A stretch of DNA of 37,044 nucleotides, taken from Lachnospiraceae bacterium. GTDB lineage: Bacteria > Bacillota > Clostridia > Lachnospirales > Lachnospiraceae. Position numbers and translations under genes: made by a program. Position 1 is the first letter of the stretch; every line of letters begins with the position of its first letter. Below are positions 1,333-36,932 of this stretch, one piece after another. The notes under the pieces were generated by a model that made no database searches, had not been told where the DNA came from, and saw only the letters and a program-made list of their open reading frames with translations. The DNA is taken from NCBI GenBank assembly GCA_024699045.1, contig JAILQK010000051.1, positions 1-37,044 of the forward strand, given 5' to 3'.

Positions 1333-1426
1333 CCGTATTATTTCATACAGTATTATTCATTTCATGCAGTATTATTTCGTATGTTATTATTTCGCACGGC
1401 ATCACTTCGTAACGTATTGTTTCGTA
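1333..1426. repeat. Degenerate 15-bp tandem array between ffh and rpsP
   Basis: About six units are visible on the plus strand at 1333-1347, 1348-1366 (with a four-base insertion), 1367-1381, 1382-1396, 1397-1411 and 1412-1426. The consensus is close to CAGTATTATTTCGTA. Units share mainly the TATT and TTTCGTA parts. No open frame or ribosome site suggests coding. It fills about half of the ffh-rpsP gap. Confidence 0.8.
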
Positions 1427-1459
1427 ACGACCGTTTTTTGAAGTGTCATGTCCTGTGAA

Positions 1460-2815
1460 CTAGATCTTTAACTGCTTCATCAGGTTCTGCATCTGGGCCA
1501 TCTGGCCGAAGCGTCCTCTCTTCTTCCCTCCGCCGGTCATCTGCTTCATGAGCTTCTGCATCTGCTCAAACTGCTTAACCAGTCGGTTCACGTACATTAT
1601 ATCCACGCCTGCGCCTTTGGCGATGCGGTTCTTTCGTTTCGGATTGAGCAGCTTCGCGTCATCCCTTTCCGCCGGTGTCATGCTCATGATTATCGCCTCG
1701 TTCCGCTTGAGCATGCTTTCATCTATCTCGGGAAGACCCTTGCCTCCCATACCGAGCATCGAAATGACCGACCCCATTCCGCCCATCTTATTGACCTGCT
1801 TCATGGAATCAAGATAATCATTAAAAGTAAAGCGGCCCTTCTTCAGACTCTCGGCTGCCTTTCTGGCATCCTCTTCCTCTATAGCCTCCCCGGCTTTTTC
1901 GATCAGGGAAAGGACATCTCCCATTCCGAGGATCCGGCTCGCCATCCTGTCCGGATAGAATATATCAAAATCCTGAGGCTTCTCGCCGCTTGCGGCAAAC
2001 ATGATCGGTTTTCCGGTAACGGCCCTTATTGAAAGCGCTGCTCCTCCGCGGGTATCTCCGTCAAGCTTGGTAAGGATGACTCCGTCGATCCCCACTTTCT
2101 CATCAAATCCGGTCGCCACATCGACCGCAGCCTGACCGGTACCGGCATCTACCACCAGAAGGGTATCATCTACGTGTACTTTCTCCTTGATATCGTGAAG
2201 CTCCTGCATAAGAGCCTCATCTATCTGCTGTCTTCCGGCAGTATCAAGGATAACAACATCAAACCGCTCTTTTCTTGCTTCTTCCACCGCCGCTTCCGCA
2301 ATGATCACCGGACTCTTATCGGTACCCATTTCAAATACCGGAGTCGAGACCTTCTCTCCGTTTACCTTAAGCTGCTCTATCGCAGCGGGCCTGTATACGT
2401 CCAGCGCCGCAAGCATCGGTTTCCTGCCTTTATTCTTAAGATGAAGTGCGATCTTGCCGCAGGTGGTCGTCTTTCCGGCTCCGTTCAGTCCGGCCATCAT
2501 TATGACCGTGGGCTCAGGGGCATTTGCAAACGAAAGCTGTGCTGCCTCATCCCCCATAAGGGATGTCATCTCTTCGTTTACAAGCTTGATCACCTGCTGT
2601 CCGGGATTCAGGCCTTTCATAATGTCCGACCCGATCGCCCGCTCTTCCACAGCCTTGGTGAACTGCTTGACGACCTTGAAATTCACATCCGCTTCAAGAA
2701 GCGCCATCCGGACTTCCCTGAGCGCGGTCTTTACATCATCCTCGGTAAGGGTGCCCTTGCTCCGAAGCTTCTTGAAAACGTTTTGCAGTTTATCGCTTAA
2801 ACTCTCAAATGCCAC
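1460..2815 (-). CDS. ffh: Signal recognition particle GTPase Ffh
   Basis: A 451-residue protein with the full SRP54 layout. An N-terminal helical bundle is followed by the G domain with P-loop GLNGAGKTT (109-117), DTAGRQ (191-196) and TKLDGDTRGG (249-258). A methionine-rich M domain follows, with a C-terminal run of KLMKQM and MAQMQNLMKQLKI that binds 4.5S RNA and signal sequences. Ffh delivers nascent membrane proteins to FtsY at the membrane. The start codon is GTG, sharing one base with the ylxM stop (TAGTG), so the two genes are co-translated. Length is normal. Confidence 0.98.
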   Translation of the reverse strand: MAFESLSDKLQNVFKKLRSKGTLTEDDVKTALREVRMALLEADVNFKVVKQFTKAVEERAIGSDIMKGLNPGQQVIKLVNEEMTSLMGDEAAQLSFANAPEPTVIMMAGLNGAGKTTTCGKIALHLKNKGRKPMLAALDVYRPAAIEQLKVNGEKVSTPVFEMGTDKSPVIIAEAAVEEARKERFDVVILDTAGRQQIDEALMQELHDIKEKVHVDDTLLVVDAGTGQAAVDVATGFDEKVGIDGVILTKLDGDTRGGAALSIRAVTGKPIMFAASGEKPQDFDIFYPDRMASRILGMGDVLSLIEKAGEAIEEEDARKAAESLKKGRFTFNDYLDSMKQVNKMGGMGSVISMLGMGGKGLPEIDESMLKRNEAIIMSMTPAERDDAKLLNPKRKNRIAKGAGVDIMYVNRLVKQFEQMQKLMKQMTGGGKKRGRFGQMAQMQNLMKQLKI

Positions 2816-3144
2816 TATAATGCCTCATCGATATCGTTTATTATCTCCCGGAGCTTCTCCCGGTCTATGGGATCTTCCTTCAATGCTTCCCTGAGGGCAT
2901 CGATCCCCTCCGTCATCTTTCCGGTTTTTTCGATCAGCCTTAATTCCTTCTCATATCCTCTGAGTTTGTCATCCAGACGCTTCAGTGTCTCAGATACTGC
3001 CTGTCTCGAGATCCCGATCTCCTCCGATATCTCGGAAAGGGACATATCATCCACGGCGCAGGCCTCATATATTCGTTTATTCTTCTCACTCAGGAGCCCG
3101 CCGTAGTGATCAAAGAGCAGTCCCCTCTCGATAAACTTTTCCAT
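2815..3144 (-). CDS. ylxM: YlxM/p13-like helix-turn-helix protein, SRP-associated
   Basis: A 109-residue protein of the YlxM family (UPF0122). It starts MEKFIERGLLFDHYGGLLSE and carries a sigma-region-4-like helix-turn-helix, MSLSEISEEIGISRQAVSE, at about residues 34-52, then a charged helical tail. The gene almost always precedes ffh in Firmicutes. The streptococcal homologue has been reported to modulate SRP GTPase activity; whether this holds here is inference. The ATG lies about 20 bases downstream of a sigma-A-like minus-strand promoter (3164-3193), giving a very short leader. The ribosome site is weak (GGTG). It shares one base with ffh. Confidence 0.95.
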   Translation of the reverse strand: MEKFIERGLLFDHYGGLLSEKNKRIYEACAVDDMSLSEISEEIGISRQAVSETLKRLDDKLRGYEKELRLIEKTGKMTEGIDALREALKEDPIDREKLREIINDIDEAL

Positions 3145-3163
3145 ATCATCACACCGGAGATAA

Positions 3164-3193
3164 ATACTATCAGACCGGCCGCCCTGCTGTCAA
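3164..3193 (-). promoter_or_regulatory. Sigma-A-like promoter of ylxM-ffh
   Basis: On the minus strand TTGACA (3193-3188) and TAGTAT (3169-3164) are separated by 18 bases. They lie about 20 bases before the ylxM ATG. The -35 is a perfect consensus match. Its sequence forms one arm of the inverted repeat CTGTCAA/TTGACAG at 3187-3209. Confidence 0.65.
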
Positions 3194-3208
3194 GTTTTTT
3201 TATTGACA

Positions 3209-3290
3209 GCTTTGGTTTTGGCCTTGGTTGTGGGTTTCGCTTTGATTTGGGCTTTTGCTTTGATTTGGGCTTTGGTTTCCTTTTTCCCAC
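3209..3290. repeat. G/T-rich 18-bp tandem array in the ylxM/patatin divergent gap
   Basis: Two nearly identical 18-bp copies lie at 3239-3256 and 3257-3274 (core GCTTTGATTTGGGCTTT). A diverged copy is at 3221-3238 and a partial one at 3209-3220. The plus strand is almost free of A, giving strong strand asymmetry. The minus strand could encode a Lys-Pro repeat (KPKSK-type) from 3290 to 3090, but that frame overlaps ylxM and has no ribosome site, so I treat the array as non-coding. Confidence 0.75.
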
Positions 3291-3298
3291 CCTTTGTA

Positions 3299-3323
3299 TA
3301 TAATATATGTTTGTCTATATAAT
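3299..3323 (+). promoter_or_regulatory. Possible -10 elements upstream of the patatin gene
   Basis: TATAAT occurs at 3299-3304 and again at 3318-3323 on the plus strand, 52-76 bases before the lipase ATG. Neither has a good -35 at 16-18 bases. A perfect plus-strand TTGACA lies at 3203-3208, but the 18-bp array separates it from these -10 boxes by about 90 bases. Either site could start transcription, so this call is tentative. Confidence 0.4.
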
Positions 3324-3374
3324 TCCAACGGGAAAGCGTAAGCTCCCGTGCCGGATGATAAAGGAGCAAAGATC

Positions 3375-4247
3375 ATGGGTACAGGTATAGTGCTTGAAGG
3401 CGGTGCTATGAGAGGCATGTTTACAGCAGGAGTCATTGATGTAATGCTGGAAAACAATATAGAGTTTGCGGGCGCCGTCGGTGTATCGGCGGGCGCCGTA
3501 TTCGGATGCAATCTTAAATCAAAACAGATCGGGCGGGCGATCCGGTACAATAAGAGGTTTGCGAAAGACTGGAGATATTGCTCGGTCAGGTCTCTCCTTC
3601 TTACCGGAGATATGTTCGGCGCCGAGTTCTGCTATGAAAAGGTCCCGTTCCATTACGATCCCTTCGATCTCAAGACCTATCGCAGCAATCCCATGCCGCT
3701 CTATGCGGTGATGACCGATGTCGATACCGGCAAAGCCGTCTACAAAAGGCTTGACGAGGGATCCGGTCTCGATATGCTCTATTTCAGAGCTTCTGCCTCC
3801 ATGCCGTTAGCCTCAAGGCCTGTTGAGATCCTGGGACGAAGCTATCTTGACGGAGGGATGACCGATTCGATCCCGCTCAGATTCATGCAAAAAAAAGGCT
3901 ATGAAAAAAATGTGGTGGTACTGACTCAACCGCAAGACTATGTGAAAGAACCGATGCGTGATATGCGCGTGATTGGGGCACTGCTGAAAAAATACCCGCG
4001 TATGGTCAGAGCTTTAGGCCGACGCCATATCATGTACAATAAAGAAACCGCCTATGTCTATAAATGCCGTGACGAGGGCAGCGTCTTCGTTATACAGCCA
4101 CCCGAACCACTCCACATCAATCATACGGAGCATGATCCCGAAGAGCTCCAGAGAGTCTATGATATCGGACGCAGGACTATGGAAGCGAATCTGGAAGACC
4201 TCAAGGCTTTCATGAACCGTGGGGACGGAGTCAAGGGGCCATTTTAG
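3375..4247 (+). CDS. Patatin-like phospholipase family protein (RssA/YjjU type)
   Basis: A 290-residue cytoplasmic protein with the catalytic dyad of patatin-like lipases. GGAMRG (9-14) forms the oxyanion hole. GVSAG (36-40) carries nucleophile Ser38. LDGG (158-161) carries Asp159. The family hydrolyses acyl esters of lipids; the substrate here is unknown. The frame extends back to 3348, but AAGGAG at 3361-3366 sits eight bases before the ATG at 3375, which decides the start. The last codons (GDGVKGPF and stop) lie within a REP-like repeat that is also found inverted in the convergent DUF454 gene, so the natural C-terminus has probably been replaced. It is the only plus-strand gene in this part of the window. 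Confidence 0.9.
   Translation: MGTGIVLEGGAMRGMFTAGVIDVMLENNIEFAGAVGVSAGAVFGCNLKSKQIGRAIRYNKRFAKDWRYCSVRSLLLTGDMFGAEFCYEKVPFHYDPFDLKTYRSNPMPLYAVMTDVDTGKAVYKRLDEGSGLDMLYFRASASMPLASRPVEILGRSYLDGGMTDSIPLRFMQKKGYEKNVVVLTQPQDYVKEPMRDMRVIGALLKKYPRMVRALGRRHIMYNKETAYVYKCRDEGSVFVIQPPEPLHINHTEHDPEELQRVYDIGRRTMEANLEDLKAFMNRGDGVKGPF
4220..4245 (+). repeat. REP-like element, copy A, at the end of the patatin gene
   Basis: Contains GGGGACGGAGTCAAGGGG followed by CCATTTT. It matches copy B (4291-4324, opposite strand) and copy C (37011-37044). It encodes the last residues and ends at the stop of the lipase gene. With copy B it forms an inverted repeat of about 26 bases with three mismatches. Confidence 0.85.
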
Positions 4248-4316
4248 AAACGAGATCAATCATAAATCCCGCAATATCTCCCTCGTAGGAAAAAATGACC
4301 CCTCAACTCCGTCCCC
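4220..4316. terminator. Inverted REP pair, possible bidirectional terminator between convergent genes
   Basis: Arms 4220-4245 and 4291-4316 are complementary except for about three positions. The plus-strand end of the first arm is CATTTT and the minus-strand end of the second is CATTTTTT, so both directions have a T-run. Both stop codons lie inside or between the arms. The function is inferred from layout only. Confidence 0.5.
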
Positions 4317-6451: not shown

Positions 6452-7363
6452 TCACTTGGCGACGACGGTAAGGATAATAAAGAATATAATACTCAAAAGA
6501 GTTATGACCGAAAGGGAGGACGACACAAAATTCCTCTGGTTTTCATCATCCGCAAATACCGGAAGAACATAAGGCGGTGGCAATATGAACATGATATTGA
6601 GTGCCGGATCGAGCATTTCCCCCATTCCTATGGCGTGTACCACAAGCCCTGCCACAACGCGGAGAAGAACCATGATGATGATCCTCGCCGCTGCAACCTT
6701 GCAGACCGCTTTCCAGGGTATATCGCTGAAGACAAGATCATAGCCTATGGTGATAAGTATGACAGCCCCTGTAGGCGCGCTGACAAAATCGGTACAGGCA
6801 TCTATAAGACTGCTGACTCCTGAAGGAATAAGCGCATTATACAGCCCCGTTGCCCCAAGGATCACGCCGGCGATGATAGCGATGATCGTGGGAGAGTGAA
6901 ACATTTCACTTACCAGCTGCTTCGGCTCCGCCTTTTTATTCCCGTCGTTGCCGAGAAGGATCTTATATACGGTAAAAACGAATAAGACCTGTCCAAGGTC
7001 TACATATGCAAAACTCGATATGTTTTCGGAGCCGTAAAGGAGCATAAAAAGTGAATAACCAAGCATTCCGGCCTCAAAGCCGGTCGTAAGGAAGGGAACG
7101 AATCTGGATCCTCCGGCAAACAGCTTTCCCATAAGAAGAGCCGCCAGACAGACAAGGAACATCAAAGCAGTTATGATTATATTATTAAAGGAATATGACA
7201 TTGTCGCAAAGGCGTTCAGCATGACTGCCGGCAGCGTAATGTTTACGACAACGCTCTTAAGCGCGTTTATGCCCTCCCGTGACAGCAGATTGCTTCTTCT
7301 TGCGATCACACCTATGGCAAGCATAAGTATCACCGGGACTATCGTATTAAGTATTTCTATCAT
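6452..7363 (-). CDS. AEC family (auxin efflux carrier-like) transporter
   Basis: A 303-residue integral membrane protein with about ten hydrophobic segments in two similar halves. It starts MIEILNTIVPVILMLAIGVI, which is typical of AEC/YfdV-type permeases. Family members export or import organic anions such as malate or malonate. No substrate can be read here. The N-terminal LPAVMLNAF and the late ILPPPYVLPVFA stretches, near the helix breaks of both halves, fit the family. The start at 7363 has AGGAG six bases upstream. The 119 bases between it and the upstream VOC gene are largely a 22-bp repeat. The neighbours suggest no shared pathway. Confidence 0.9.
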   Translation of the reverse strand: MIEILNTIVPVILMLAIGVIARRSNLLSREGINALKSVVVNITLPAVMLNAFATMSYSFNNIIITALMFLVCLAALLMGKLFAGGSRFVPFLTTGFEAGMLGYSLFMLLYGSENISSFAYVDLGQVLFVFTVYKILLGNDGNKKAEPKQLVSEMFHSPTIIAIIAGVILGATGLYNALIPSGVSSLIDACTDFVSAPTGAVILITIGYDLVFSDIPWKAVCKVAAARIIIMVLLRVVAGLVVHAIGMGEMLDPALNIMFILPPPYVLPVFADDENQRNFVSSSLSVITLLSIIFFIILTVVAK

Positions 7364-7394
7364 GTCTTTCTCCTATCCGACTATCCGTCTGCTG

Positions 7395-7444
7395 TCCGTT
7401 TACTTACCGATCGCTCTCCGTTTACTTACCGTCCGCTCTCCGTA
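7395..7444. repeat. 22-bp direct repeat between the VOC and AEC genes
   Basis: Two adjacent 22-bp copies lie at 7395-7416 and 7417-7438. Both begin TCCGTTTACTTACCG, with a one-base shift inside. A third begins TCCGTATAAT at 7439, and degenerate TATCCG copies precede at 7375-7388. No gene or ribosome site lies within. Confidence 0.8.
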
Positions 7445-7482: not shown

Positions 7483-7875
7483 TCAGTTCCTTGTTACTAT
7501 TTCAAGTTCCACTCCGTTAGGATCTTTCACAAGGATATTCCTGAAGCTTAACTTTGGCACATCCTCGGGAGCGGAATCACACTTTACTCCTCTGCTTACA
7601 AGCCTTTCATAAAGCGCATCCACGTCATCGCACTGAAAGGCAAGATGACGGTACATCCCACGGGTCTTGACCGCCGGATGGATCTCTCCGAAATCGTCAT
7701 CATACTCGATGAGCTCAAGCATCAGACTTTCGGTAAGCTCAAAGTAATAAAGCCGGTGATCCCCCATGTCGACGGTTTCCAACTGCTTAAGTCCCAATAT
7801 ATCTCCGTAAAACTCAAGACTCTTCTTAAGGTCTGTCACGTTGATCGTTATATGGTCTGGTCTAAGATTCATCAT
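7483..7875 (-). CDS. VOC superfamily protein (glyoxalase/dioxygenase fold)
   Basis: About 130 residues, a single vicinal-oxygen-chelate domain with two beta-alpha-beta-beta-beta modules. Metal-ligand positions are visible: His in DHITINV, Glu in MLELIEY, His in RHLAFQCDD and Glu in GVELEIVT. The family includes glyoxalase I, methylmalonyl-CoA epimerase and fosfomycin-resistance enzymes. The substrate is not determinable from this sequence, although the layout is closest to lactoylglutathione-lyase-like proteins. A longer frame starts with TTG at 7899, but AAGGAGGAG lies inside it. That ribosome site is about nine bases before the ATG pair at 7875/7872, so the shorter start is preferred. It follows the epimerase gene on the same strand, separated by a 26-bp duplication. 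Confidence 0.85.
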   Translation of the reverse strand: MMNLRPDHITINVTDLKKSLEFYGDILGLKQLETVDMGDHRLYYFELTESLMLELIEYDDDFGEIHPAVKTRGMYRHLAFQCDDVDALYERLVSRGVKCDSAPEDVPKLSFRNILVKDPNGVELEIVTRN

Positions 7876-7928
7876 TTTGATCATCTCCTCCTTGGTCAAT
7901 CATCATTAAAAGTCGTTTGTCAAAGCCT

Positions 7929-7980
7929 CAGCATCAGAAGCGTCCATCCCGCCTCGGTATCAGAAGCGTACATCCCGCCT
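7929..7980. repeat. 26-bp tandem duplication spanning the stop of the epimerase gene
   Basis: Copies lie at 7929-7954 and 7955-7980 and differ at three positions. Both contain ATCAGAAGCGT and CATCCCGCCT. The copy at 7955-7980 holds the last six codons and the stop of the epimerase gene. The other is a non-coding copy just downstream. Confidence 0.9.
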
Positions 7981-9132
7981 TATCACCTCAAGGCACATGC
8001 GTCCGTTATGATACGGACATTTCCAGGGTTCTACCAGAGGCTTATCCTTATAAGGCACCCCATTGGCATCGAGCTGACTGTACCACTCTCCCCCGGATTG
8101 CTCATAGATGAATTTCTCCTTGATATATTCCCACTCGGCAAGGACTGCAGTCTTATATTCCTCCTTGGAAGGATCCTGCAGGTATTTGTTCAAAAAGCCG
8201 TTAACGGTCTCAGCCTGAGCCCACCATATCCTGTCTTCATTCACCTTCCCTTTCTCGCACTCCGCCGGAAGAGAATGCCCGTCAAATGCATTATGCAGGA
8301 TATTATCTGCCAGATCGTCCGTGATCGGGGTCATCTCCCGGGTCAGCTCCTCATCTCCAAGGACCTCCAGTCCTCTGTCCAGGAGCCAGGAGGTTTCGAT
8401 ATCATGTCCGTATGAGACAAGATCCAGCAAAGAGTTGTAATCCTTATCAAAAAATACCTTCTGACAATGCCTTGCGGGATCATACATCCTGTCCTTGAAT
8501 ATCCTGAGCATTTCCTTAATCTTTGGCGCCGTTTCTTCTACCGCTCCCGCCTCATAAAGCTCCGTATATGCTTCGAATACATGCAGCAGCGTGTTCATCG
8601 TCCTCTCGGCTATGACGCCGTTTTCCGACAGCTTATCATTCACTGACGGGCTCAGATCACGGTTAAAGCTTTCAAGATATCCGTTTTCATCCCTGCACTT
8701 TTCTTCGATAAATCCGGTCAGCTCCTTTGCAAGCGCCAGACTCTCTTTATTACCTGAAGCCCTGTAATATGCGGAAAGACCGTATACCGCAAAAGCCTGG
8801 CAGTATGTGTGCTTGCATGTATCGAGAGGATTCCCGTCAAAAGTTGCCGACCAGTACAGTCCGCCAAACTCATCGTCTATATAGGATCTTTTCAGAAAAT
8901 CAAATGCATGACCTGCATAATCAAGACACTTTTTATCATGCAGAAGCAGGGCACAGGTTGAAAAAAACCACAGGATCCTCGAATTCAGCAGGCATCCTTT
9001 GCCTGACCTTTCGGCTATATTCAGATCATTGTCCATAAAACCGAAATATCCGCCGTAATTGTCATCTTTCAGCTTCATCCAAAATGGTATGAGGCTCTCC
9101 CTTAAGTGTTTCTCTGTTTCTTCCCTGAACAT
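7960..9132 (-). CDS. ce: Cellobiose 2-epimerase (AGE family)
   Basis: A 390-residue (alpha/alpha)6-barrel enzyme. It closely resembles the Ruminococcus albus cellobiose 2-epimerase as I recall it: SRILWFFS (51-58), KHTY with AFAVYGLSAYYRASG (107-127), and WKCPYHNGRMC near the end. Likely catalytic or binding residues are in place: His184, His243 in SYGHDIE, Trp303-Trp304 and His375. The enzyme converts cellobiose to glucosyl-mannose, feeding mannan or cellulose breakdown by phosphorolysis; this is known for the family. No phosphorylase or sugar transporter lies nearby, so the context does not confirm it. The stop codon lies inside a 26-bp tandem duplication. The start has a GGTGGT-type ribosome site. 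Confidence 0.92.
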   Translation of the reverse strand: MFREETEKHLRESLIPFWMKLKDDNYGGYFGFMDNDLNIAERSGKGCLLNSRILWFFSTCALLLHDKKCLDYAGHAFDFLKRSYIDDEFGGLYWSATFDGNPLDTCKHTYCQAFAVYGLSAYYRASGNKESLALAKELTGFIEEKCRDENGYLESFNRDLSPSVNDKLSENGVIAERTMNTLLHVFEAYTELYEAGAVEETAPKIKEMLRIFKDRMYDPARHCQKVFFDKDYNSLLDLVSYGHDIETSWLLDRGLEVLGDEELTREMTPITDDLADNILHNAFDGHSLPAECEKGKVNEDRIWWAQAETVNGFLNKYLQDPSKEEYKTAVLAEWEYIKEKFIYEQSGGEWYSQLDANGVPYKDKPLVEPWKCPYHNGRMCLEVIRRDVRF

Positions 9133-9150: not shown

Positions 9151-9999
9151 TTATTGTTTTTTATGAGCATAATCATCCAGAAAATGATGATATTCCCCAT
9201 CCTTTTTATAGGCTATTATCGTAGCGAGATTAACGTTTTCGACACTCTTGAATATATTTGCTTCAGTATAGGGATTTACCTCATGCAGTTTTCTTATGAG
9301 CGCCTTGATCTCTGCTCTTTTTCCGCCGTCTCCGTCATCCTTCAGACCATTCGTGAGCGAACAGGCACATTTAATAAACTCAAGACCGTTGTGCTTTGCC
9401 CATTTTATTATGCTCTCCTCCCGGATAAGATACATGGGCCTTATAAGCTCCATCCCCTGAAAATTGACCGAGTGAAGCTTCGGCATCATAGTCTGTATCT
9501 GGCCCCCGTAGAGCATTCCCATGAGGATGGTCTCTATAACGTCATCGTAATGATGCCCGAGTGCGATCTTATTACAGCCCAGTTCTTTGGCATGAGAATA
9601 CAATGCCCCACGCCTCATCCTTGCGCAGGGATAACAGGGAGACTGCTCACCGGAGTCGACTATCTCAAATATCGGAGACCGGAAGCGGATCAGCTCTATT
9701 CCGAGAAGGTTCGCGTTTTCTTCGACCTTTCTCCGGTTCAGGTCATTATATCCCGGGTCCATCGTCAGATATACCGGTTCAAAATTTCTCTCCCCATGCC
9801 TGTAAAGCTCCTGAAAAAGCTTCGCCATAAGGAAAGAATCCTTGCCTCCGGAAACACATACCGCGATCCGGTCACCCTGACATATAAGCCCGTACTGGTT
9901 TACTGCCCGGGTAAAACGTGACCAGAGATCGCTCCGATACTGTTTTATTATGCTTCGCTCCGCTTCACGCCTGGTGTTTTCGACGTCCGGCTCAGCCAT
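9151..9999 (-). CDS. TtcA-family PP-loop tRNA sulfurtransferase-like protein
   Basis: An ATP-pyrophosphatase of the TtcA group. It shows the PP-loop SGGKDS, CYPC (CxxC), a later CAC cysteine cluster and GHHYDD. In enterobacterial TtcA these cysteines hold a 4Fe-4S cluster used for 2-thiocytidine at tRNA position 32. The Firmicutes branch is less well studied, so the exact modification is inferred. With the ATG at 9999 (AGGA six bases upstream) the PP-loop lies near residue 50, as in E. coli TtcA. The frame stays open back to an ATG at 10155 that overlaps the preceding gene, which would add 52 repetitive residues. I prefer the shorter form but cannot exclude the longer one. Confidence 0.85.
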   Translation of the reverse strand: MAEPDVENTRREAERSIIKQYRSDLWSRFTRAVNQYGLICQGDRIAVCVSGGKDSFLMAKLFQELYRHGERNFEPVYLTMDPGYNDLNRRKVEENANLLGIELIRFRSPIFEIVDSGEQSPCYPCARMRRGALYSHAKELGCNKIALGHHYDDVIETILMGMLYGGQIQTMMPKLHSVNFQGMELIRPMYLIREESIIKWAKHNGLEFIKCACSLTNGLKDDGDGGKRAEIKALIRKLHEVNPYTEANIFKSVENVNLATIIAYKKDGEYHHFLDDYAHKKQ

Positions 10000-10023
10000 C
10001 AAAGTTCCTGAAAGCTTCTCCAT

Positions 10024-10113
10024 ATCCGAAGCGTCCGAAACCCGCTCCACCTCCGAAGCATCCGAACCGCTTGAAACCCACTTCACCTCCGAACCGCCCG
10101 AAGCGTCCAAAAC
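10024..10113. repeat. 36-bp tandem array ahead of the TtcA-like gene
   Basis: On the minus strand two 36-bp copies (10095-10060 and 10059-10024) share about 29 positions, with TTCGGAGGTG and GGGTTTC conserved. A half copy precedes at 10113-10096. If translated it would give SEVKWVSSG and SEVERVSDA repeats in a long N-terminus of the TtcA-like protein. It may equally be a non-coding gene-boundary array like the others here. Confidence 0.8.
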
Positions 10114-10144
10114 GCCAAAACCCTCTTCCGCAGCCTTGCCGACC

Positions 10145-10945
10145 TCACTTCTCATCTGTGATATCGATGCCCAGATATTTATTCGACATTTCCGACAGGG
10201 TCCCCTCTTCCTTTAGTTCACTAAGGGCCCTGTTGACCTCCGCCAGTAACGTGGCTGATTCCCCGCCGTTTCTTACGGGTATCATAAATACCGCCGGATC
10301 ATCCGAAGTTGCAACGATCTTGAGCGCAGCTTCCGGATGCCTCTTCATATAGTCGTAGATCGGAAGTTCGGTATTGATCATTGCATCCGTCAAGCCGGAA
10401 GCAACCATCCCGATCGCATCGGATACTCCCGAGGAATCATGGACCTCCGCTCCGTACTTGGAAGCTATGTTGGCATAGGTGGTACCTTTGGCATTTGATG
10501 TCTTCTTTCCCTTCAGGTCCTCGAATCCTTTGATATCCGTATTGTCCTCGGCAACAACGAGCACCATATTATATTGCCCGTAGGGATCTGAAAAATCATA
10601 TTTTTTTTCTCTCTCTTCGGTCTTCTCAAGGCTGTCTATTATGATGTCGTACTTTCCCTGATCAAATCCTCTGAAAAGATCGTCCCAGTTGCACTCAAAC
10701 AGCAATACTCCCACGCCAAGCTTTTCCGCAACAGCCTGTGCCAGTTCAACATCAAAGCCTGTGAGTTCACCGTTTTCGGCGTGATAACACCAGGGTTCCT
10801 GATTGCTCTCCACCCCTATGGTTATCTTACCGTTTTTCTTTATCTTCCCCAGTGTATCCAGATCATCCTTCTTCCCGCAACCGGTCATAGTCAGCAGAAG
10901 GATCATCGTCAATGATAATGCAGTAACTTTTTTTAATAGCCTCAT
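10145..10945 (-). CDS. Amino acid ABC transporter substrate-binding lipoprotein (SBP family 3)
   Basis: A 266-residue protein with a lipoprotein signal peptide: positively charged MRLLKK, a hydrophobic core and the lipobox LTMTGC (Cys23). The mature part is a family-3 periplasmic-binding fold, with ITIGVESNQEPW, GFDVELAQAVAEKLG, YDIIIDSLEKTEER and DFSDPYGQYNM. Such proteins capture polar amino acids or cystine for an ABC importer. No permease or transporter ATPase gene is adjacent; the ATPase upstream belongs to a different class. It is therefore an orphan receptor, possibly serving a transporter encoded elsewhere. The ATG at 10945 has GGGGGG four bases upstream. Its stop overlaps the first ATG of the long TtcA-like frame. 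Confidence 0.93.
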   Translation of the reverse strand: MRLLKKVTALSLTMILLLTMTGCGKKDDLDTLGKIKKNGKITIGVESNQEPWCYHAENGELTGFDVELAQAVAEKLGVGVLLFECNWDDLFRGFDQGKYDIIIDSLEKTEEREKKYDFSDPYGQYNMVLVVAEDNTDIKGFEDLKGKKTSNAKGTTYANIASKYGAEVHDSSGVSDAIGMVASGLTDAMINTELPIYDYMKRHPEAALKIVATSDDPAVFMIPVRNGGESATLLAEVNRALSELKEEGTLSEMSNKYLGIDITDEK

Positions 10946-18729: not shown

Positions 18730-19541
18730 AAATGAGCCGCATCCTGGGAAAGATATATGTGGGGCTTATACTGATCTTCCTCTATGCCCCGATACTGGTC
18801 CTTATCGTACTGAGCTTCAATTCTTCCAGATCAAGGGTTGTATGGGGAGGCTTTACCTTAAAATGGTACGGCTCGCTTTTGAAGAGCACCACCATCATGA
18901 ATGCGCTATGGACCACTTTCCTCCTGGCCGTGCTCTCTGCCCTCATATCGACCGTCCTCGGGCTTTTCGGAGCTTTAGGGATCTATTCGATGAAAAAGAG
19001 GAGCTACCGCATCATGCTGTTTGGGACAAAGATCCCCATGTTAAATGCCGATATCGTCACCGGCATAGCGCTCATGCTCTGGTTCGTGAGATTCCTTCCT
19101 CTTGGATTCGGCTCGATCCTGCTCGCGCATGTCACCTTCAACATTCCCTATGTCATACTTTGCATACTGCCTAAGCTTCGCACCATGGACATATACCAGT
19201 ATGAAGCGGCGCTCGACCTCGGCGCAGGCAGCCCTTACGCTTTCTTTCACATCCTTATCCCGCAGATATTGCCCGGGATCCTGTCGGGTTTTTTGATGGC
19301 GGTGACCCTTTCGATGGACGATTTTGTCATAACCTATTTCACCAAGGGCGCGGGAATAAATACCCTCTCCACGCTCATCTACGGAGAGATAAGGAAAGGG
19401 ATCAAACCCGAAATGTATGCTTTATCTACAGTTTTGTTCTTTATTGTGCTAGTATTACTTATATTGGTTAATTTGCCGTATGACCGTTTCTTTATGACGG
19501 CAGGCACAGGATCGGTAAGAGAGGTGGAACATGAAAAGTAA
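18726..19541 (+). CDS. potC: Spermidine/putrescine ABC transporter permease PotC
   Basis: A 271-residue permease with six hydrophobic helices. It starts LGKIYVGLILIFLYAPILVL, a PotC-type opening, and then has VLSFNSSRSRVVWGGFTLKW. The EAA loop reads EAALDLGAGSPYAFFHILIP near residue 160. MDDFVITYFTKG near residue 195 is a conserved PotC-like segment. It overlaps potB by four bases and potD by eleven, so the four genes form one tightly coupled unit. The last helix (FIVLVLLILVNLPY) is encoded by sequence a little more A/T-rich than the rest of the gene; I attach no meaning to that. Confidence 0.93.
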   Translation: MKMSRILGKIYVGLILIFLYAPILVLIVLSFNSSRSRVVWGGFTLKWYGSLLKSTTIMNALWTTFLLAVLSALISTVLGLFGALGIYSMKKRSYRIMLFGTKIPMLNADIVTGIALMLWFVRFLPLGFGSILLAHVTFNIPYVILCILPKLRTMDIYQYEAALDLGAGSPYAFFHILIPQILPGILSGFLMAVTLSMDDFVITYFTKGAGINTLSTLIYGEIRKGIKPEMYALSTVLFFIVLVLLILVNLPYDRFFMTAGTGSVREVEHEK

Positions 19542-20586
19542 GATCATTGCCGTTATTTGCGTGATAAGCGCGGTTCTTTGCCTGACATCCGGATGCGGAG
19601 GCGCCGCGGAAACGGGGGAAACCCTCACTGTATTTAATTACAGCGAATATCTTGATCCCGAAATGCTCGAACTATTTACCAAAGAAACCGGGATAAAAGT
19701 AAAATACGAAGAAGCGACCACTCCCGAGGAGCTTTATACAAAGTATATGTCCGGAGGGATCTCCTATGACCTGATATGCACCTCCGATTATATGGTCAAA
19801 CAGCTTATCGGAGAGGGCGAGGCTCAGCCTGTCGATTTCGGATCTATGCAGTATTCCTCCAATATCGGCGACCGTTTCTGGGAAATGTCAAAGTCGATAG
19901 ATCCCGATAACAAATATGCACTCCCCTATTTCTGGGGAACGATCGGTCTGCTCTATGACAGCACCCGGGTATATGAGGATATCGACAGCTGGGATGTGCT
20001 CTTTAACGGCGAATATGCCGGGGATATAATCATGCAGGACTCGATGCGCGACACCTTCATGATCACTCTGAAGCATCTTGGATATTCACTCAACACCTCT
20101 GATGAAAACGAGATAAGGGAAGCGGCTGAAGCCCTCAAGCAGCAAAAGCCCGATGTCCAGGCTTATCTTGTGGATGAGGCGCGGGACGAAGTCGTGGCCG
20201 GCAACGCGACTATGGCAGTGGTATATTCGGGCGAAGCTTATCTGGGGCACGAATATAATTCCAATCTTCGCTATGTCGTTCCGAAAGAAGGCTCAAATGT
20301 CTGGCTTGACTCATGGATCGTGACGAAAAAATGCCAGAATCCCGAAGCCGCAGCCAAATTCCTTGATTTTCTCTGCAGGGAGGATGTCGCGACCGCAAAC
20401 TTCGAATACATATACTACTCCACTCCCAATGAAGCCGTTCTTGCTTCAATGGATCCGGAGCTGAAAGAAGATCCGGCGATAGTCCCTCCGGATCAGGCCG
20501 TCGATAAATGTGAGGTCTGCACACAGTCAGACCCTAAGATAACAGAACTCTACAACGAACTCTGGAAAGAGCTTAAAGCGGAATAA
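19531..20586 (+). CDS. potD: Spermidine/putrescine-binding lipoprotein PotD
   Basis: A 351-residue secreted lipoprotein: MKSK, a hydrophobic core and the lipobox CLTSGC with Cys22 as lipid anchor. The mature protein reads LTVFNYSEYLDPEMLELF, then YDLICTSDYMVKQLI, YFWGTIGLLYDSTRV and WDVLF, which are conserved in PotD/PotF binding proteins. It captures polyamines outside the cell and delivers them to PotBC. GAGGTGG just before the ATG gives a good ribosome site despite the eleven-base overlap with potC. The last codons (Lys-Ala-Glu-stop) lie within the first unit of a 24-bp tandem array. The gene is convergent with panE. Confidence 0.93.
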   Translation: MKSKIIAVICVISAVLCLTSGCGGAAETGETLTVFNYSEYLDPEMLELFTKETGIKVKYEEATTPEELYTKYMSGGISYDLICTSDYMVKQLIGEGEAQPVDFGSMQYSSNIGDRFWEMSKSIDPDNKYALPYFWGTIGLLYDSTRVYEDIDSWDVLFNGEYAGDIIMQDSMRDTFMITLKHLGYSLNTSDENEIREAAEALKQQKPDVQAYLVDEARDEVVAGNATMAVVYSGEAYLGHEYNSNLRYVVPKEGSNVWLDSWIVTKKCQNPEAAAKFLDFLCREDVATANFEYIYYSTPNEAVLASMDPELKEDPAIVPPDQAVDKCEVCTQSDPKITELYNELWKELKAE

Positions 20587-20632
20587 AGCGGAAAAGATAA
20601 ACCGTAATAAACCGGAAGGGATAAACCGGGAG
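20575..20632. repeat. 24-bp tandem array spanning the potD stop
   Basis: Units lie at 20575-20598, 20599-20622 and 20623-20632 (partial). Each is built of a 10-base and a 14-base half starting AAAGCGG or AAACCG. The first unit includes the last three potD codons and the stop. The array fills nearly all of the 50 bases between potD and the convergent panE gene. No terminator hairpin is seen there. Confidence 0.85.
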
Positions 20633-20636: not shown

Positions 20637-21572
20637 TCAGGAGTTATACGTCGCCTCGATCTCCTTTACCCTTCTGTAAAGGAATTCATTGGCCGGGGTC
20701 TTTATATCGTGTTTCCTGCCGAGCGCGATAACCTCCCCGGCAAACATATCCACCTCTGAAGGACGCTTCTGTCTCCTGTCCTGTCCCATTGAAGGAGTTG
20801 CCGAAGGATCAAGCGATGCGATGATATCGAGATACTGGTTGATCTCCTTTTCCCCGAGGGGTATCCCTTCGGCCTGCCCTAATGCAGCGACCTCACGCAT
20901 GGCCGCAACATTCATGGCATACTCTTCCGATCCCGGTCTCGTTACTCCGGCGTAATCCGAATCATATACCATGCAGGTCTGATTTATCCCGACATTGAGC
21001 ATGAATTTGCACCACAGTCTGTACAATATCTCGGGCTCCAATGTATGAGGGACCTTACATCTTTCAAAGAGCTCATCGATGCCGGCAAGCCTCTCCCTGA
21101 GCTTTTGATCCGCTCCGTGAGGCACCCCGATGATCAGCTCTCCGTGCTTGCTGTATACTATCTCCGCCCCTTCTCTTTGGGCGTCCATTCCCTGGGACAC
21201 CGTATAGATAACGTTATCGGCTCCGAACCGCTCCGCTATTATCCTCTCGCTTGAGATCCCGTTGAGCATGGAGACAAAGACCGTATCCTCGTGCGCCAAA
21301 GGGGCGATAAGGTCAAGCGCCTCATTAAGAGTCGGAAATTTCACCCCTACAAGGATCACATCCGCTTTTCCGTTTTCAAGGAATTCTTCGGGGGTTTCGA
21401 TCGTATAGGAAACCTCTCTTCCGTTTATGACATAGCGATCCTTTCTGTGCCGTCCGGCCCTTTCGGGATCCATGACAAACGCAGTATGTCCTTCATGGTT
21501 TTCCGCAAGCTCACCGCCGAACAAAAGCCCCAGGGCTCCCATTCCGACTATCGCTATGTTATCCGTCCTCAT
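20637..21572 (-). CDS. panE: 2-dehydropantoate 2-reductase family protein (PanE/ApbA)
   Basis: A 311-residue NADPH-dependent reductase. The Rossmann motif is GMGALG (residues 11-16). ILVGVKFP follows, then the catalytic-lysine helix LYRLWCKFMLNVGINQ. PSEVDMFAGEVIALG near residue 275 holds the conserved Ser and Glu. PanE reduces ketopantoate to pantoate in coenzyme A synthesis. The family also contains relatives acting on other 2-keto acids, and no other pantothenate gene is nearby, so panE is probable rather than certain. AAGGAGG precedes the ATG. It follows degV by 42 bases on the same strand. Confidence 0.85.
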   Translation of the reverse strand: MRTDNIAIVGMGALGLLFGGELAENHEGHTAFVMDPERAGRHRKDRYVINGREVSYTIETPEEFLENGKADVILVGVKFPTLNEALDLIAPLAHEDTVFVSMLNGISSERIIAERFGADNVIYTVSQGMDAQREGAEIVYSKHGELIIGVPHGADQKLRERLAGIDELFERCKVPHTLEPEILYRLWCKFMLNVGINQTCMVYDSDYAGVTRPGSEEYAMNVAAMREVAALGQAEGIPLGEKEINQYLDIIASLDPSATPSMGQDRRQKRPSEVDMFAGEVIALGRKHDIKTPANEFLYRRVKEIEATYNS

Positions 21573-23334: not shown

Positions 23335-23360
23335 GTGTCCGGTATGAGTGTCCGGTCACT
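23335..23360. repeat. 13-bp direct repeat spanning the alaS stop
   Basis: Copies lie at 23335-23347 and 23348-23360, sharing GTGTCCGGT. The alaS stop (23358-23356, minus strand) is in the second copy. This is short and could be chance, but it repeats the pattern seen at the epimerase and potD ends. Confidence 0.5.
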
Positions 23361-33407: not shown

Positions 33408-34378
33408 TTTCCGAATTTGACATGTGTATGACTGAAAAGATGGTCCTGGCAGTATTCATAGTTGCCCGCACACTTGCTGCAGAATCTGAACTCAAGTTCA
33501 TCTCCGTCAAGCTCAGTCCGTCCGCATACGGCGCACCTGTGCTTTGTGATCCTGTCATCCGCGGGATGCGTTATCGTATGGAATGCCGATGTATCCTGCC
33601 CGGTCGTCTGACCTGCAGCACCCGATGCAGCGCCGGAATTCTGTCCTCCGTTCACGGAGCTCCAGCCTTTTCGGTTCCTGTTACCCTGATAATAAGGACC
33701 TCTCTCATAAGCCTTCTTAAAATTCTTCTTTCTGGCTCTTTCTCCCGGCGAGATCGAATGATAGTTTCTCGTAGTGAAGAAAAAGATGATGAAGTTCAAA
33801 AGCGAAACTATGATGGCTACCCTCTCCGCCCAGCTAGACACCAGCGCCTGGTATACAAGGAACGCTACATCAACAAACGCCAGATATTTGATCTTGAGCG
33901 GGATCAGGAAATACAGCATGACCTGCATATCGGGGTAGCATGCCGCAAACGCCAGAAAGATCGACATATTGATGTAATAAGTCGTAAACATCCCGTCTAT
34001 GCTGTAGCCAAAGGCATAGAGCACGAAGGCCCCTACCATCATAAGGATAAGCCCCGAAAAGATATAGAAATTGTACTTGAAATCCCCCCAGGTCTGCTCC
34101 AGCGCAGTTCCTATCTGGTAATAAAAAAGAAGCATGATGATGGTAAATATCCCCGGGGCCGACGGAGGCATGAATATCCAGGTAAAAAGTCTCCATATCT
34201 GACCGTGAAGGATCAATTCCGGGCTCAGGTATATGAGCGAGATCACGGGAACGCCCGCAAGATTCAGAAAATACAGTATATACCCTATGATATAGGTGAG
34301 GATCATATATTTTGTAAGCTGCGGTACGGCATATCTGCCAAGTTTACGTTCAATTTTGTTTATCACTGAATTTATCAT
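33404..34378 (-). CDS. Rhomboid-like membrane protein (probable pseudoprotease) with C-terminal zinc ribbon
   Basis: About 324 residues. Six hydrophobic helices (about 20-210) follow the rhomboid/derlin pattern, including the WR of loop 1 (QIWRLFTWIFMPPS). The catalytic GxSG of helix 4 and His of helix 6 are absent; the corresponding region reads YYINMSIFLAFAACYPD. A low-complexity linker rich in Gly, Gln and Asn follows. At the end is a zinc ribbon: CAVCG (282, 285), CSKC (300, 303) and C310. The start at 34378 has AGGA six bases upstream; the frame also opens earlier. It is therefore likely inactive as a protease, perhaps a membrane adaptor. A promoter with a palindrome lies just upstream. 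Confidence 0.85.
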   Translation of the reverse strand: MINSVINKIERKLGRYAVPQLTKYMILTYIIGYILYFLNLAGVPVISLIYLSPELILHGQIWRLFTWIFMPPSAPGIFTIIMLLFYYQIGTALEQTWGDFKYNFYIFSGLILMMVGAFVLYAFGYSIDGMFTTYYINMSIFLAFAACYPDMQVMLYFLIPLKIKYLAFVDVAFLVYQALVSSWAERVAIIVSLLNFIIFFFTTRNYHSISPGERARKKNFKKAYERGPYYQGNRNRKGWSSVNGGQNSGAASGAAGQTTGQDTSAFHTITHPADDRITKHRCAVCGRTELDGDELEFRFCSKCAGNYEYCQDHLFSHTHVKFGK

Positions 34379-34410
34379 CATCAATCCTTCATAACGGGCT
34401 TTCAAACGCA

Positions 34411-34439
34411 AGTCTGACCGCTTAAACAGCGGTCAGACT
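34411..34439. other. Perfect 12-bp palindrome at the rhomboid promoter
   Basis: AGTCTGACCGCT (34411-34422) and AGCGGTCAGACT (34428-34439) pair perfectly around the five-base loop TTAAA. It begins at the edge of the minus-strand -10 box, so it would cover the transcription start. It could be an operator or a transcript stem. It also lies after the PHP gene and may end that transcript, though only a weak T-run follows on the minus strand. Confidence 0.6.
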
Positions 34440-34468
34440 ATTTTAATATAAAAAACGTCTATTGTCTA
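34440..34468 (-). promoter_or_regulatory. Sigma-A-like promoter upstream of the rhomboid-sigma-M16 series
   Basis: On the minus strand TAGACA (34468-34463), a 17-base spacer and TAAAAT (34445-34440). Both are five-of-six matches to consensus. It points to the rhomboid-like gene, whose ATG is about 60 bases downstream, across the palindrome at 34411-34439. Confidence 0.65.
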
Positions 34469-34479
34469 TGGTCTGGATA

Positions 34480-35223
34480 TCATGTCTCAAAACCGATCTC
34501 TTCAAGAATGGTCTTTATCCTTATATCCGATTGGGGCTGGCTTACCTGATCGGGACTGTGAGCATCACACCCGTATATGAGACGGCATCCCATAGACTTC
34601 GCAAGCCTGAAAAAATCCACTCTGGGATACCATCTTCCGGTAATGATCCCGAGTCCGTTGATCTCAAGCGGAACATCATTATCCCGGGCATACTCGCATA
34701 TCCGTGTCATATGCCTTAAATATACCTCCCGGTCTCCGGTGAAATGTATGAGATCGGGATGCGCAAGATACATGAACTCATGTGTTTCCAGCGCTTCTAT
34801 GACTATATCCACATAGTCCTTCAGCCTTTCCTCACTGTCGGTGGCATTGCCGGCATAAAAGCCGTTCTCCTCATCGGGAACATAATGCTGTCCGAGGATG
34901 ATGTAATCAAGCTCCCGGCTTCTGATCTCCTTCATGAGCCTGTCAAAATATCCTTTGAAATACTCGACCTCAAGCCCGATCCGTATGTCGATCCTGTCGG
35001 CATATTCGTATTTAAGGGTCCTGACCGTATCGACATAATCGTCAAGCTGATCCATATCCATACGGATAGGTGATACAAATCCGCTTTCATAAGGCTGCGG
35101 CGTATGATCGGAAAAGCCCAGTACCCTGAACCCGTTTTCTATCGCTTTTTCGACATACTCTCTCTCACTTCCCGTGGCATGCTTGCATCTTACCGTATGT
35201 GTATGATAATTCTCCGTCAGCAT
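34480..35223 (-). CDS. PHP-domain histidinol-phosphatase family protein (HisJ-like)
   Basis: A 247-residue PHP hydrolase. The motifs HTHTVRCKHA (7-16), FSDHTPQ, IGLEVEYF, ILGQHYV, YLAHPDLIH and YGCDAHSPDQV supply the trinuclear metal site. The family removes phosphate from histidinol phosphate or similar small molecules. There is no other histidine gene nearby, so the substrate is not settled. It starts four bases after the stop of the C_GCAxxG_C_C gene, with a weak ribosome site, so it is likely translated from the same message. The gene ends just before a promoter-palindrome region. Confidence 0.85.
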   Translation of the reverse strand: MLTENYHTHTVRCKHATGSEREYVEKAIENGFRVLGFSDHTPQPYESGFVSPIRMDMDQLDDYVDTVRTLKYEYADRIDIRIGLEVEYFKGYFDRLMKEIRSRELDYIILGQHYVPDEENGFYAGNATDSEERLKDYVDIVIEALETHEFMYLAHPDLIHFTGDREVYLRHMTRICEYARDNDVPLEINGLGIITGRWYPRVDFFRLAKSMGCRLIYGCDAHSPDQVSQPQSDIRIKTILEEIGFET

Positions 35224-35227
35224 TGTC

Positions 35228-35635
35228 TCAGCTAATCTTGCCCTTCTCCCTGAGGATATCCTCGACTATGCCGATGCTCTCGTATACCATAGAGTCGCAG
35301 TGGGGTTTCTTGGGAAGACCTTTTTCATGATTGATCCTCAAAAGATCCCGGCACTCTATGAAGCCCTCATGGTTATTTTTTATACGGTTCGCGAAATCCG
35401 CCACGACCTTGGGATCGTCCACACCGAAAAGTCCCAGGGTCATCAGACCTCCGGTAAAAGCCCCGCAAACGGAGGCAAGTCTCATTCCGCTTCCGAAATT
35501 CGCCCCCATCTTCATTGCCGTGTCATGGTCAATCCCCGCCTCCTCGGCGAAAGGGACCAGCACTGACTGTGCGCAGTTGTAATGAGGCGATTCTATCGCG
35601 CGGATCTCTTTTGCTCTGTCCAGATATTTACTCAT
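35228..35635 (-). CDS. C_GCAxxG_C_C family redox-type protein
   Basis: A 135-residue small protein. The conserved cysteines appear as YNCAQSVL, SVCGAFTGGLMTLG (the GCAxxG position), ECRDLL and HCDSMV. The family is frequent in anaerobes and may bind a metal or cluster or act in redox, but its function is not established. The frame extends back to 35719, but the family begins near MSKYLDRAKEIRAIESPHY. The ATG at 35635, which lies eight bases inside the end of the DUF4349 gene, is chosen. It is co-transcribed with the genes on either side. Confidence 0.87.
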   Translation of the reverse strand: MSKYLDRAKEIRAIESPHYNCAQSVLVPFAEEAGIDHDTAMKMGANFGSGMRLASVCGAFTGGLMTLGLFGVDDPKVVADFANRIKNNHEGFIECRDLLRINHEKGLPKKPHCDSMVYESIGIVEDILREKGKIS

Positions 35636-36932
35636 TCTTCCCGGACTCCTCTTTATTCTCCCCGTCATCTTTCTCTTCGTCCTTAGATGAAAGAGGGGTA
35701 TTGCTTGTATAGTGTCCACCCTGCTGACCGTTTCCGGCGGGCTTTCCGGTTATCGGAGGAGGCGCCGGCATCTGAATATCCGCTCCGCCCGCGGCCGTCT
35801 GTCCGTCCGCAGTCGTCTGTCCTGCTGCAGCCTGACTCTGTCCTGCCTGAGCTGTCTGTCCCTGACCCGTGACCGGCCTGCCCTGCATCTTCGCCTGCTC
35901 CTTTGCGGCTTTCTTCTCCTGTCTGCTCATCTTAGGTGTCTTTGATTTTTTCCCCGAGCCGATGATCTTCCTTATGATCCATACCACCAGGTAAGCAAAG
36001 AGTCCAAGGATAGCAAATAACGGAAGCCTTGTGATTATGAACACTGCCACATGGAATGCGATCTCAAGACCGTCGGCAAGCTGCTCCGTGAAATCCTCCC
36101 AGAGCTTCTGACCCAGGGACTTCTCACCGCCGCCCCCAAGATTTACGGTCCTGGTTTCCTCCGCATCGATCTGAACGGTGCTGTAGCTTACCTTGTTCTG
36201 CATGGACTTAAGCTGTCTTTGCAGGCTTTCAAGCTCATAATTGATCTTTGCGATCTCTTCCCTTATCGTGAGTATATCCTTTAACGAGGTCGCCTCTTTC
36301 AAAAGCTCCAGAAGACTGTCCCTCTCCGCCTCATACGTCGCGATCTTTGCCTGTGTATCCACATACTTCAACGTCACGTCTTCGGCGGACTCGCTCTTGG
36401 AAGTGATTATTCCCTCATCATTTACGATGTTAAGAAAATCATCAAGCTTTTCGGAAGGGATACGTGCCGTGAAATATCCGTATCTCGACTCAGAGTATTC
36501 GGAATCATAGGAATTGATATCCATACTCTCCATATATCCGCCATAATCCTTAACTGTCCTCTTAAGGTTGTCCGAAAACTCCTCCAGACTGGAAACTTCC
36601 AGGGAAACACTGGCATTCCGTATGATCTTGCTGCCGTATTCGACCACATCCGTTCCGGCATCGGCTTCAGCCGTAGAGCCGGCATCATCCGTGGTCTCAT
36701 CATAATCTTCGGACTCGTCATACGCCTTATCCTCCGCATATGACGAAGTATCATAATCAGCCGAATAGCCGGACGAGAATTCGTCGGATCCTTCATAATA
36801 AGCTTCTTCGGCTACCGCGGGTTCTGCCGCATATTCATCGCTCCGGTAAGCCGCACTGTTTTCAGATAAACTGCCGCAGCCTGAAAATACAAGAGCCGTT
36901 CCAAGAACCGCTATCACAAGAGATTTTTTCAT
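35628..36932 (-). CDS. DUF4349 domain lipoprotein
   Basis: A 434-residue lipoprotein. MKKSLVIAVLGTALVFSGC gives the lipid anchor Cys19. A Tyr/Asp/Glu/Ser-rich low-complexity stretch (about 20-95) follows, then the DUF4349 core (IIRNASVSLEVSSLEEF, GGYMESMDINSY, VTLKYVDTQAKI). Next are a long coiled coil and one transmembrane helix (FHVAVFIITRLPLFAILGLF, near residue 300), and a Gly/Gln/Ala-rich tail. The function of DUF4349 is unknown. GGGAGG six bases before the ATG at 36932 supports this start over the frame opening at 36953. Its C-terminus is a 6-7-residue repeat, and it is the first gene of this series. Confidence 0.87.
   Translation of the reverse strand: MKKSLVIAVLGTALVFSGCGSLSENSAAYRSDEYAAEPAVAEEAYYEGSDEFSSGYSADYDTSSYAEDKAYDESEDYDETTDDAGSTAEADAGTDVVEYGSKIIRNASVSLEVSSLEEFSDNLKRTVKDYGGYMESMDINSYDSEYSESRYGYFTARIPSEKLDDFLNIVNDEGIITSKSESAEDVTLKYVDTQAKIATYEAERDSLLELLKEATSLKDILTIREEIAKINYELESLQRQLKSMQNKVSYSTVQIDAEETRTVNLGGGGEKSLGQKLWEDFTEQLADGLEIAFHVAVFIITRLPLFAILGLFAYLVVWIIRKIIGSGKKSKTPKMSRQEKKAAKEQAKMQGRPVTGQGQTAQAGQSQAAAGQTTADGQTAAGGADIQMPAPPPITGKPAGNGQQGGHYTSNTPLSSKDEEKDDGENKEESGKNE
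35795..35870. repeat. Short tandem repeat encoding the Gly-Gln-rich tail of the DUF4349 protein
   Basis: Four or so units of 18-21 bases encode segments that each begin with GQT or GQS (GQTAQA, GQSQAAA, GQTTAD, GQTAAG). A shorter related stretch (AAGQTTGQD) occurs in the linker of the rhomboid-like protein near 33590-33640. Confidence 0.65.

Follow-up and report, generated by a model that had tools for sequence, protein, structure and literature searches.

Along a 37,044-nt stretch of a Lachnospiraceae bacterium genome (assembly GCA_024699045.1, contig JAILQK010000051.1; hereafter the window), short tandem repeats of differing sequence and unit size lie where genes meet. Their position raises the question of whether some process duplicates DNA at gene junctions, or whether such duplications arise throughout the genome and persist where they are tolerated. 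We consider it probable that the arrays are minisatellites born locally by genome-wide slippage, and that those now visible are the survivors from tolerant places. The observations behind this reading are an excess of arrays over shuffled sequence, units unrelated to one another, the lack of the arrays in the relatives compared, a reading-frame filter within genes, the seeding of an array by a gene end at one locus, and, outside genes, a heavier array load than that of sister species. The source genome (G000) comprises 2.63 Mb in 233 contigs and is 81% complete; the window is its contig C169. The best-matching named records for the window's Ffh protein are Lachnospiraceae bacteria, including Lachnospiraceae bacterium AC3007 (G061).

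Arrays were detected with Tandem Repeats Finder (TRF), with a score of at least 50 and a score of 60 as main thresholds; the program mostly overlooks arrays with copy identities below about 70%. In the window it returned 22 rows at a score of at least 30. The initial annotation had named eight repeats, and each of the window arrays was compared with 500 dinucleotide-shuffled versions of its local stretch. For five of them no shuffle was as good. The first, a degenerate array at 1330..1393 (named as 1333-1426; 15 bp x 4.0 or 19 bp x 2.2), lies between ffh (1460-2815, minus strand) and a minus-strand gene at 1021-1278 that, from reading its protein, we take to be rpsP. The second (18 bp x 2.4 at 3231..3273, named as 3209-3290) lies in a divergent gap toward a plus-strand gene at 3375 and upstream of the ylxM-ffh promoter, the name ylxM being presumptive. 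The third (22 bp x 2.4 at 7391..7443, named as 7395-7444) occupies the gap between a Mem_trans gene (6452-7363, minus strand) and a 138-aa open reading frame (ORF; 7483-7899, minus strand). The fourth, on the minus strand (26 bp x 2.2 at 7925..7980, named as 7929-7980), contains the stop codon, TGA at 7960, of a GlcNAc 2-epimerase gene (7960-9132, minus strand), and its first unit consists of the last codons of that gene plus the TGA. The fifth, on the plus strand (24 bp x 2.3 with an inner 10 bp x 2, at 20574..20629, named as 20575-20632), contains the TAA at 20586 of an SBP_8 gene (19531-20586, plus strand) that is convergent with a PanE-type gene (20637-21572, minus strand).

The remaining three named repeats fared differently. 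The stretch at 10024..10113, between the stop of an SBP_3 gene (10145) and the conserved part of a PP-loop gene, is real and very degenerate: its 9/27/36-bp periodicity gives no TRF row even at a score of 20, and its best-lag score, at 36 bases (self-identity 41/65), lies above all of 1000 shuffles. Weaker is an 18 bp x 2.2 in-frame repeat on the minus strand at 35784..35861 (named as 35795-35870), which four of 500 shuffles equalled; it sits within a gene and not at a junction, in the low-complexity C-terminal tail of a DUF4349 gene (35628-36953, minus strand), 156 bp from the stop end. A claimed 13-bp repeat at 23335..23360, at the stop of an 886-aa ORF, gave no TRF row and is unsupported. 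Two of the three stop codons placed inside a unit by the initial annotation are confirmed (7960 and 20586), and the third, at 23356, falls in the unsupported stretch.

The excess over chance extends beyond the window. Sample A comprised the window and 24 further loci of the source genome (279 kb, with 117 N-free gene gaps), and sample B, a replicate, comprised 20 contigs taken by a fixed selection rule set before inspection (86 gaps). Together they cover 45 loci and 455 kb; six loci consist wholly of N, which leaves 440 kb usable, and the others are without runs of N. At a score of 50, 16 of the 117 gaps in sample A contained arrays, 19 in all, where 50 shuffles averaged 0.16; the count at a score of 60 was 18, with a shuffle mean of 0.02. 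Sample B held six arrays in its 86 gaps at a score of 50, with a shuffle mean of 0.00. When gap sequence alone was counted, 21 of the 203 gaps of both samples had an array with a score of at least 50, where shuffles averaged 0-0.1. At a score of 60, gaps held 112 arrays per 100 kb; the outermost 60 bases of genes held 10.7, and their interiors 7.7. The predicted excess at gene ends therefore holds in the sampled stretches; a junction density equal to that of shuffled sequence or of gene interiors was looked for and did not occur. The shuffle control applied to the genus and other-family groups excluded gaps containing N. As a small control, a 50-kb stretch of E. coli K-12 had no array in 24 gaps. 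Fewer than three copies were present in 15 of 26 arrays of the source genome, and copy identities ranged from 74 to 100%, a spread that continuing birth and decay would give; one 15-bp array with 100% identity lies at 18999-19048 of contig C213. Enrichment at contig ends was considered and found unconvincing (three of 44 ends, six of which come from all-N contigs, against 1.57 expected from interior windows).

Within this excess, the units are unrelated to one another. No unit-to-unit similarity above shuffles was found among 26 arrays of the source genome or among 10 arrays of G010, a congener with about 65% Ffh identity. Genome-wide searches with two window arrays (1333-1426 and 7925-7980) returned self-matches only, and 37 of the 39 source-genome arrays not lying wholly in a gene, that is, gap arrays together with arrays extending into genes, had no further copy within the 45 loci. 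The arrays are accordingly not copies of one element, as had been noted at first sight. A shared GATC motif was rejected, at 7.95 per kb against 7.94 in the remaining intergenic DNA and in nine of 39 units against 7.6 expected, as was a hairpin-driven origin (folding z below -2 in just two of 26 source-genome and two of 10 G010 units). The A content was 28.8% in units and 30.5% in gaps.

Clusters of repetitive extragenic palindromes (REPs), organized as bacterial interspersed mosaic elements (BIMEs) and accompanied by RAYT transposases, are also short intergenic repeats, and they form one dispersed sequence family. The source genome does carry such a family. A copy of this REP-like element, which is 29-30 bp long and a class apart from the minisatellites, lies on the plus strand at the contig end (37014..37044) and has 39 matches in the genome. 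Its copies share the core GGGGACGGAGTC, are often close neighbours and occur in contigs C29, C61, C65, C82, C204 and others; in C29, a Y1-type transposase domain (3462-3797) stands between copies at 3302-3330 (plus strand) and 4264-4292 (minus strand), an arrangement that we take to resemble a RAYT with its REPs. An origin of the arrays as remnants of such mobile palindromes, which cluster in tandem, would fit the presence of this family with its Y1 transposase domains, and three of the 39 sampled arrays do contain the core, including both of those with another copy. The remaining 36 lack it, and dispersal was found for the element at 37014-37044 and not for the window arrays tested, which are single-locus and mutually unrelated. 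This origin is refuted for most sampled arrays, and we regard it as very improbable as a general explanation. The end of the window (36904-37044) and the start of contig C82 overlap by 141 bases (115 shared 27-mers), and the overlap ends in a REP-like array, so that the contig break there is probably related to assembly. Outside the source genome, arrays of G006 and G025 have a CCCTCAGAATGACAG-like core in common (arrays of TGTCATCCTGAG- or CTCAGAATGACA-like sequence at loci L074 of G006 and L092 of G025); judged by this core they are probably another dispersed repeat family, and they were not counted for local birth.

Relatives were compared across species, with one genome per species. The ffh-rpsP junction was readable in 18 of 30 loci, the rpsP start being unplaced in 12. 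Three of the 18 had an array, each with unrelated units: 19 bp in the source genome, 56 bp x 5.0 in G010 and 41 bp x 2.9 in G004. None was present in six close relatives (Ffh 84-91%). Upstream of ylxM, the array at 3231..3273 was not found in 11 other loci, nine of which cover the place fully; in L017 and L023 the upstream sequence stops at the contig end after 115 and 108 bases, and cover is incomplete. One of the nine, L024 (from G023), has an unrelated 16-bp array of its own. At the epimerase, none of the five relatives carries the extra copy. Their genes terminate at the conserved C-terminus that here makes up the first unit and seeds the array, so that the additional copy beyond the stop is the more recent one. 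These comparisons support the proposal that arrays are locally born, and at the epimerase the first unit consists of the C-terminus and stop of the gene itself. At species level, the same junctions aligned in relatives lacked the source-genome arrays wherever they were compared, and three unrelated arrays occupied ffh-rpsP.

No array followed the PanE-type gene in four relatives, yet the sequence beyond looks like a different gene there. The DUF4349 tail differs across the six relatives viewed, and L273, one of the six, carries its own repeat tail. For the PP-loop gene, five of seven relatives align from query residue 47-62; the alignments of L233 and L238 begin at residue 25-28, and the sequence ahead of that point differs. 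About 50 N-terminal residues of the 334-aa PP-loop ORF (window 9999-10155) have no counterpart in most relatives; this stretch would come from a wrongly placed start, or else be a leader that the repeat, with its 9-base period, keeps open. Upstream of ylxM (about 3166-3210 in the window), all 12 loci share an inverted repeat, TGTCAA and TTGACA around an A-rich loop, which overlaps the putative -35 hexamer of the ylxM-ffh promoter and shows adjacent paired changes in L019, L021 and L024. It may serve as an operator or form a hairpin.

Bacterial tandem repeats are able to tune the expression of neighbouring genes, and the arrays might be kept for such a function, their copy number acting as in phase variation or contingency loci. 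One of them does stand directly upstream of the ylxM-ffh promoter. The arrays are unconserved at the orthologous junctions read, their units are unrelated, their copies diverge down to 74% identity, and the genes that flank them in the window have unrelated functions. Retention for function is on these grounds very unlikely.

The periods of the arrays point to a filter. Of the arrays within genes of sample A, 27 of 28 at a score of 50 and 20 of 20 at a score of 60 had a period divisible by three, against 12 of 35 intergenic arrays from source-genome and genus loci; the genus counts, here and in the stop and start comparison below, include the G006 and G025 arrays that resemble dispersed families. 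Since almost every period within genes is a multiple of three and most intergenic ones are not, we infer that duplications of many lengths arise and that frame-breakers are lost. An artefact of metagenome assembly, in which strain variants or overlapping contig ends were joined in tandem, would not respect the reading frame. It could be suspected in a genome of 233 contigs, where the window itself overlaps C82 at a repeat. It would also have to account for arrays of up to 5.8 copies in the source genome and 10.1 in G010, and for the three arrays in 54 gaps of AC3007, a record whose title carries no label of a metagenome-assembled genome; the source-genome loci, the six all-N loci aside, are free of N runs. 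We hold this explanation to be extremely improbable.

One question was whether duplication is aimed at junctions, for instance by transcription termination or by replication-transcription conflict at 3' ends. Overlap with stop and start codons was counted in 81 genus loci (1.12 Mb, sample B excluded) for 53 arrays not wholly in a gene, and was compared with a model in which each of these arrays was placed at random, on condition that it still touched its gap. A stop codon was contained in 19 arrays and a start codon in six, two of these containing both; stop-only arrays outnumbered start-only ones by 17 to 4 (p=0.007). In samples A and B of the source genome, a stop was present in 11 of 39 arrays and a start in three; the eleven were read base by base, and two belong to the REP-like class. 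Convergent gaps were also hit more often (5/15) than co-directional (17/166) or divergent ones (4/22). However, random placement predicts 14.0 stop overlaps, so that the 19 found are not clearly high (P=0.056), and 12.9 start overlaps, of which the six found are a depletion (P=0.008); the asymmetry is therefore mainly a lack of start overlaps. In sample A alone, neither eight stop overlaps (mean 6.4, P=0.28) nor two start overlaps (mean 5.0, P=0.08) were clearly off. Some in-frame arrays lie within genes far from their ends, and few units have excess hairpin potential. A process aimed at junctions is, in our judgement, very unlikely. When a duplication passes a stop codon, the first copy still ends the gene, and a duplication across a start or leader often breaks it; the preference for junctions would then reflect survival, not aim. 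Of the common generating process proposed at the outset, the existence is plausible; its action at junctions is not supported, in view of the in-frame arrays inside genes, the near-random stop overlap and the depleted start overlap.

The mechanism that we propose for these locally born minisatellites runs as follows. Segments of roughly 10-95 bp would be duplicated in tandem genome-wide, most likely through slipped-strand mispairing in replication. Some duplications would expand to several copies, which would afterwards diverge by point mutation, and selection would clear nearly all those that break genes. Survivors would be of three kinds: arrays in intergenic gaps; arrays that run from the last codons past the stop, whose first copy preserves the gene and whose extras fall in non-coding DNA; and in-frame arrays within proteins. 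Such a sequence of events shows a route to the pattern of a stop codon inside a repeat that needs no targeted mechanism.

The array load differs between species. The sister pool comprised the array-poor G020 and G021 and loci from nine further sister-clade genomes (267 kb, 142 gaps); AC3007 is a close relative too (Ffh 88%) and was counted separately or added to the pool, as stated. At a score of 50, arrays not wholly in a gene numbered 39 in 440 kb of the source genome (8.9 per 100 kb), six in 267 kb of the pool (2.2), three in 120 kb of AC3007 (2.5) and 10 in 67 kb of G010 (15.0). Compared with the pool plus AC3007, the source genome had an excess (Fisher p=7e-5). By gaps touched, the counts were 26/203 in the source genome, 4/142 in the pool, 2/54 in AC3007 and 7/35 in G010; the source genome against pool plus AC3007 (6/196) gave p=0.0003, a value that is optimistic since arrays cluster. 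In gap sequence alone the ratio to the pool, without AC3007, was more than tenfold for this count only (21/203 against 1/142 gaps). The load outside genes is species-specific and about four times that of the sampled sisters.

Loss of mismatch repair was considered as the cause and rejected, because MutS1 and MutL are present in the source genome and in the array-rich G004, G006 and G010. A species-specific load despite MutS and MutL is the unusual part of the finding. The MutL linkers, read in two genomes, themselves contain in-frame tandem repeats, of 39 bp x 3.8 and 21 bp x 3.1 in the source genome (L292, 4099-4247 and 4323-4388) and of 108 bp x 1.9 and 114 bp x 2.3 in G010 (L291, 584-786 and 994-1257); we take them as one more tolerant place and not as a cause. 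The load may come from a raised duplication rate or from weaker removal. It is conceivable, though doubtful, that this species and G010 entered, apparently separately, a heritable tandem-duplication mutator state, in which some alteration of replication or repair that leaves MutS and MutL in place yields duplications of 10-95 bp at a raised rate chromosome-wide. If this were true, intergenic DNA and protein linkers, even that of MutL, would be in the course of being rebuilt from tandem copies. In another family, one locus (L125, from G038) held seven arrays in 12 gaps at a score of 50, against two for the 21 remaining genomes of the group combined (seven of nine arrays); G038 is possibly another array-rich lineage. 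Congeners that differ about fourfold (source genome) to sevenfold (G010) from their relatives in minisatellites outside genes provide a natural contrast, which, together with unrelated arrays at the same junction, lets one ask which difference in replication, repair or selection sets the load of 10-95 bp duplications.

Several points weigh against a genome-wide slippage origin filtered by selection. Gap arrays were about half as dense in sample B, at 5.3 per 10 kb, as in sample A, at 9.7, and the arrays are clustered in some stretches, which makes the Fisher p values optimistic. Genes were predicted with a purpose-made caller (codon log-odds and dynamic programming) whose stops are exact and whose starts are approximate. 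Within genes, the source genome had 33 arrays in 395 kb and the pool nine in 231 kb (p=0.038); AC3007 had 10 in 111 kb, and once it was added to the pool the excess faded (p=0.17), so that a genome-wide raised rate is not demonstrated. The presence of MutS and MutL does not exclude other repair defects. Finally, the comparison is between species, so that no duplication was caught in the act.

The initial annotation held that no standard feature type describes these arrays. They do belong to a known one, the bacterial minisatellite: their units of 10-100 bp stand head to tail beyond chance, they are single-locus, and those within genes keep the frame. Known bacterial minisatellites or variable-number tandem repeats likewise have tandem units of about 10-100 bp, are intergenic or in frame, occupy single loci and are commonly ascribed to slippage; the arrays described here differ in that they reach about four times the sister load outside genes, and their copies are often degenerate. 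In E. coli, according to one survey, minisatellites are a minor class of variable segments (18 of 1,037 variable loci; PMC2884548). In lake bacterioplankton, a further report ascribes intergenic tandem duplications to polymerase slippage and links them to deletions (PMC9426551); those are variants within populations, whereas the arrays described here belong to one assembled genome. A CRISPR array was rejected, since the units are contiguous and without spacers (cas genes were not searched for). For Butyrivibrio and Lachnospiraceae, no description of intergenic tandem repeats was found in a literature coverage without most subscription journals.

The closest described pattern is that of the tandem repeats in archaeal Borg elements (PMC9879509). 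Borg repeats have unique units of independent origin, are rarely conserved in relatives and reach a genome-specific load; units within genes are divisible by three and intergenic ones mostly are not, and some first units lie within a gene end (PMC9879509). The repeats counted there were perfect (at least three exact units, 50 nt or more) and A-rich, at 48.4% (PMC9879509), in contrast with the source-genome arrays, which are imperfect (74-100%), have 28.8% A and lie on a bacterial chromosome; the window carries an SRP54 (Ffh) gene that matches Lachnospiraceae bacteria. With the Borg repeats, the arrays share independent and unique units, a reading frame kept within genes, first units formed by gene ends and a genome-specific load.

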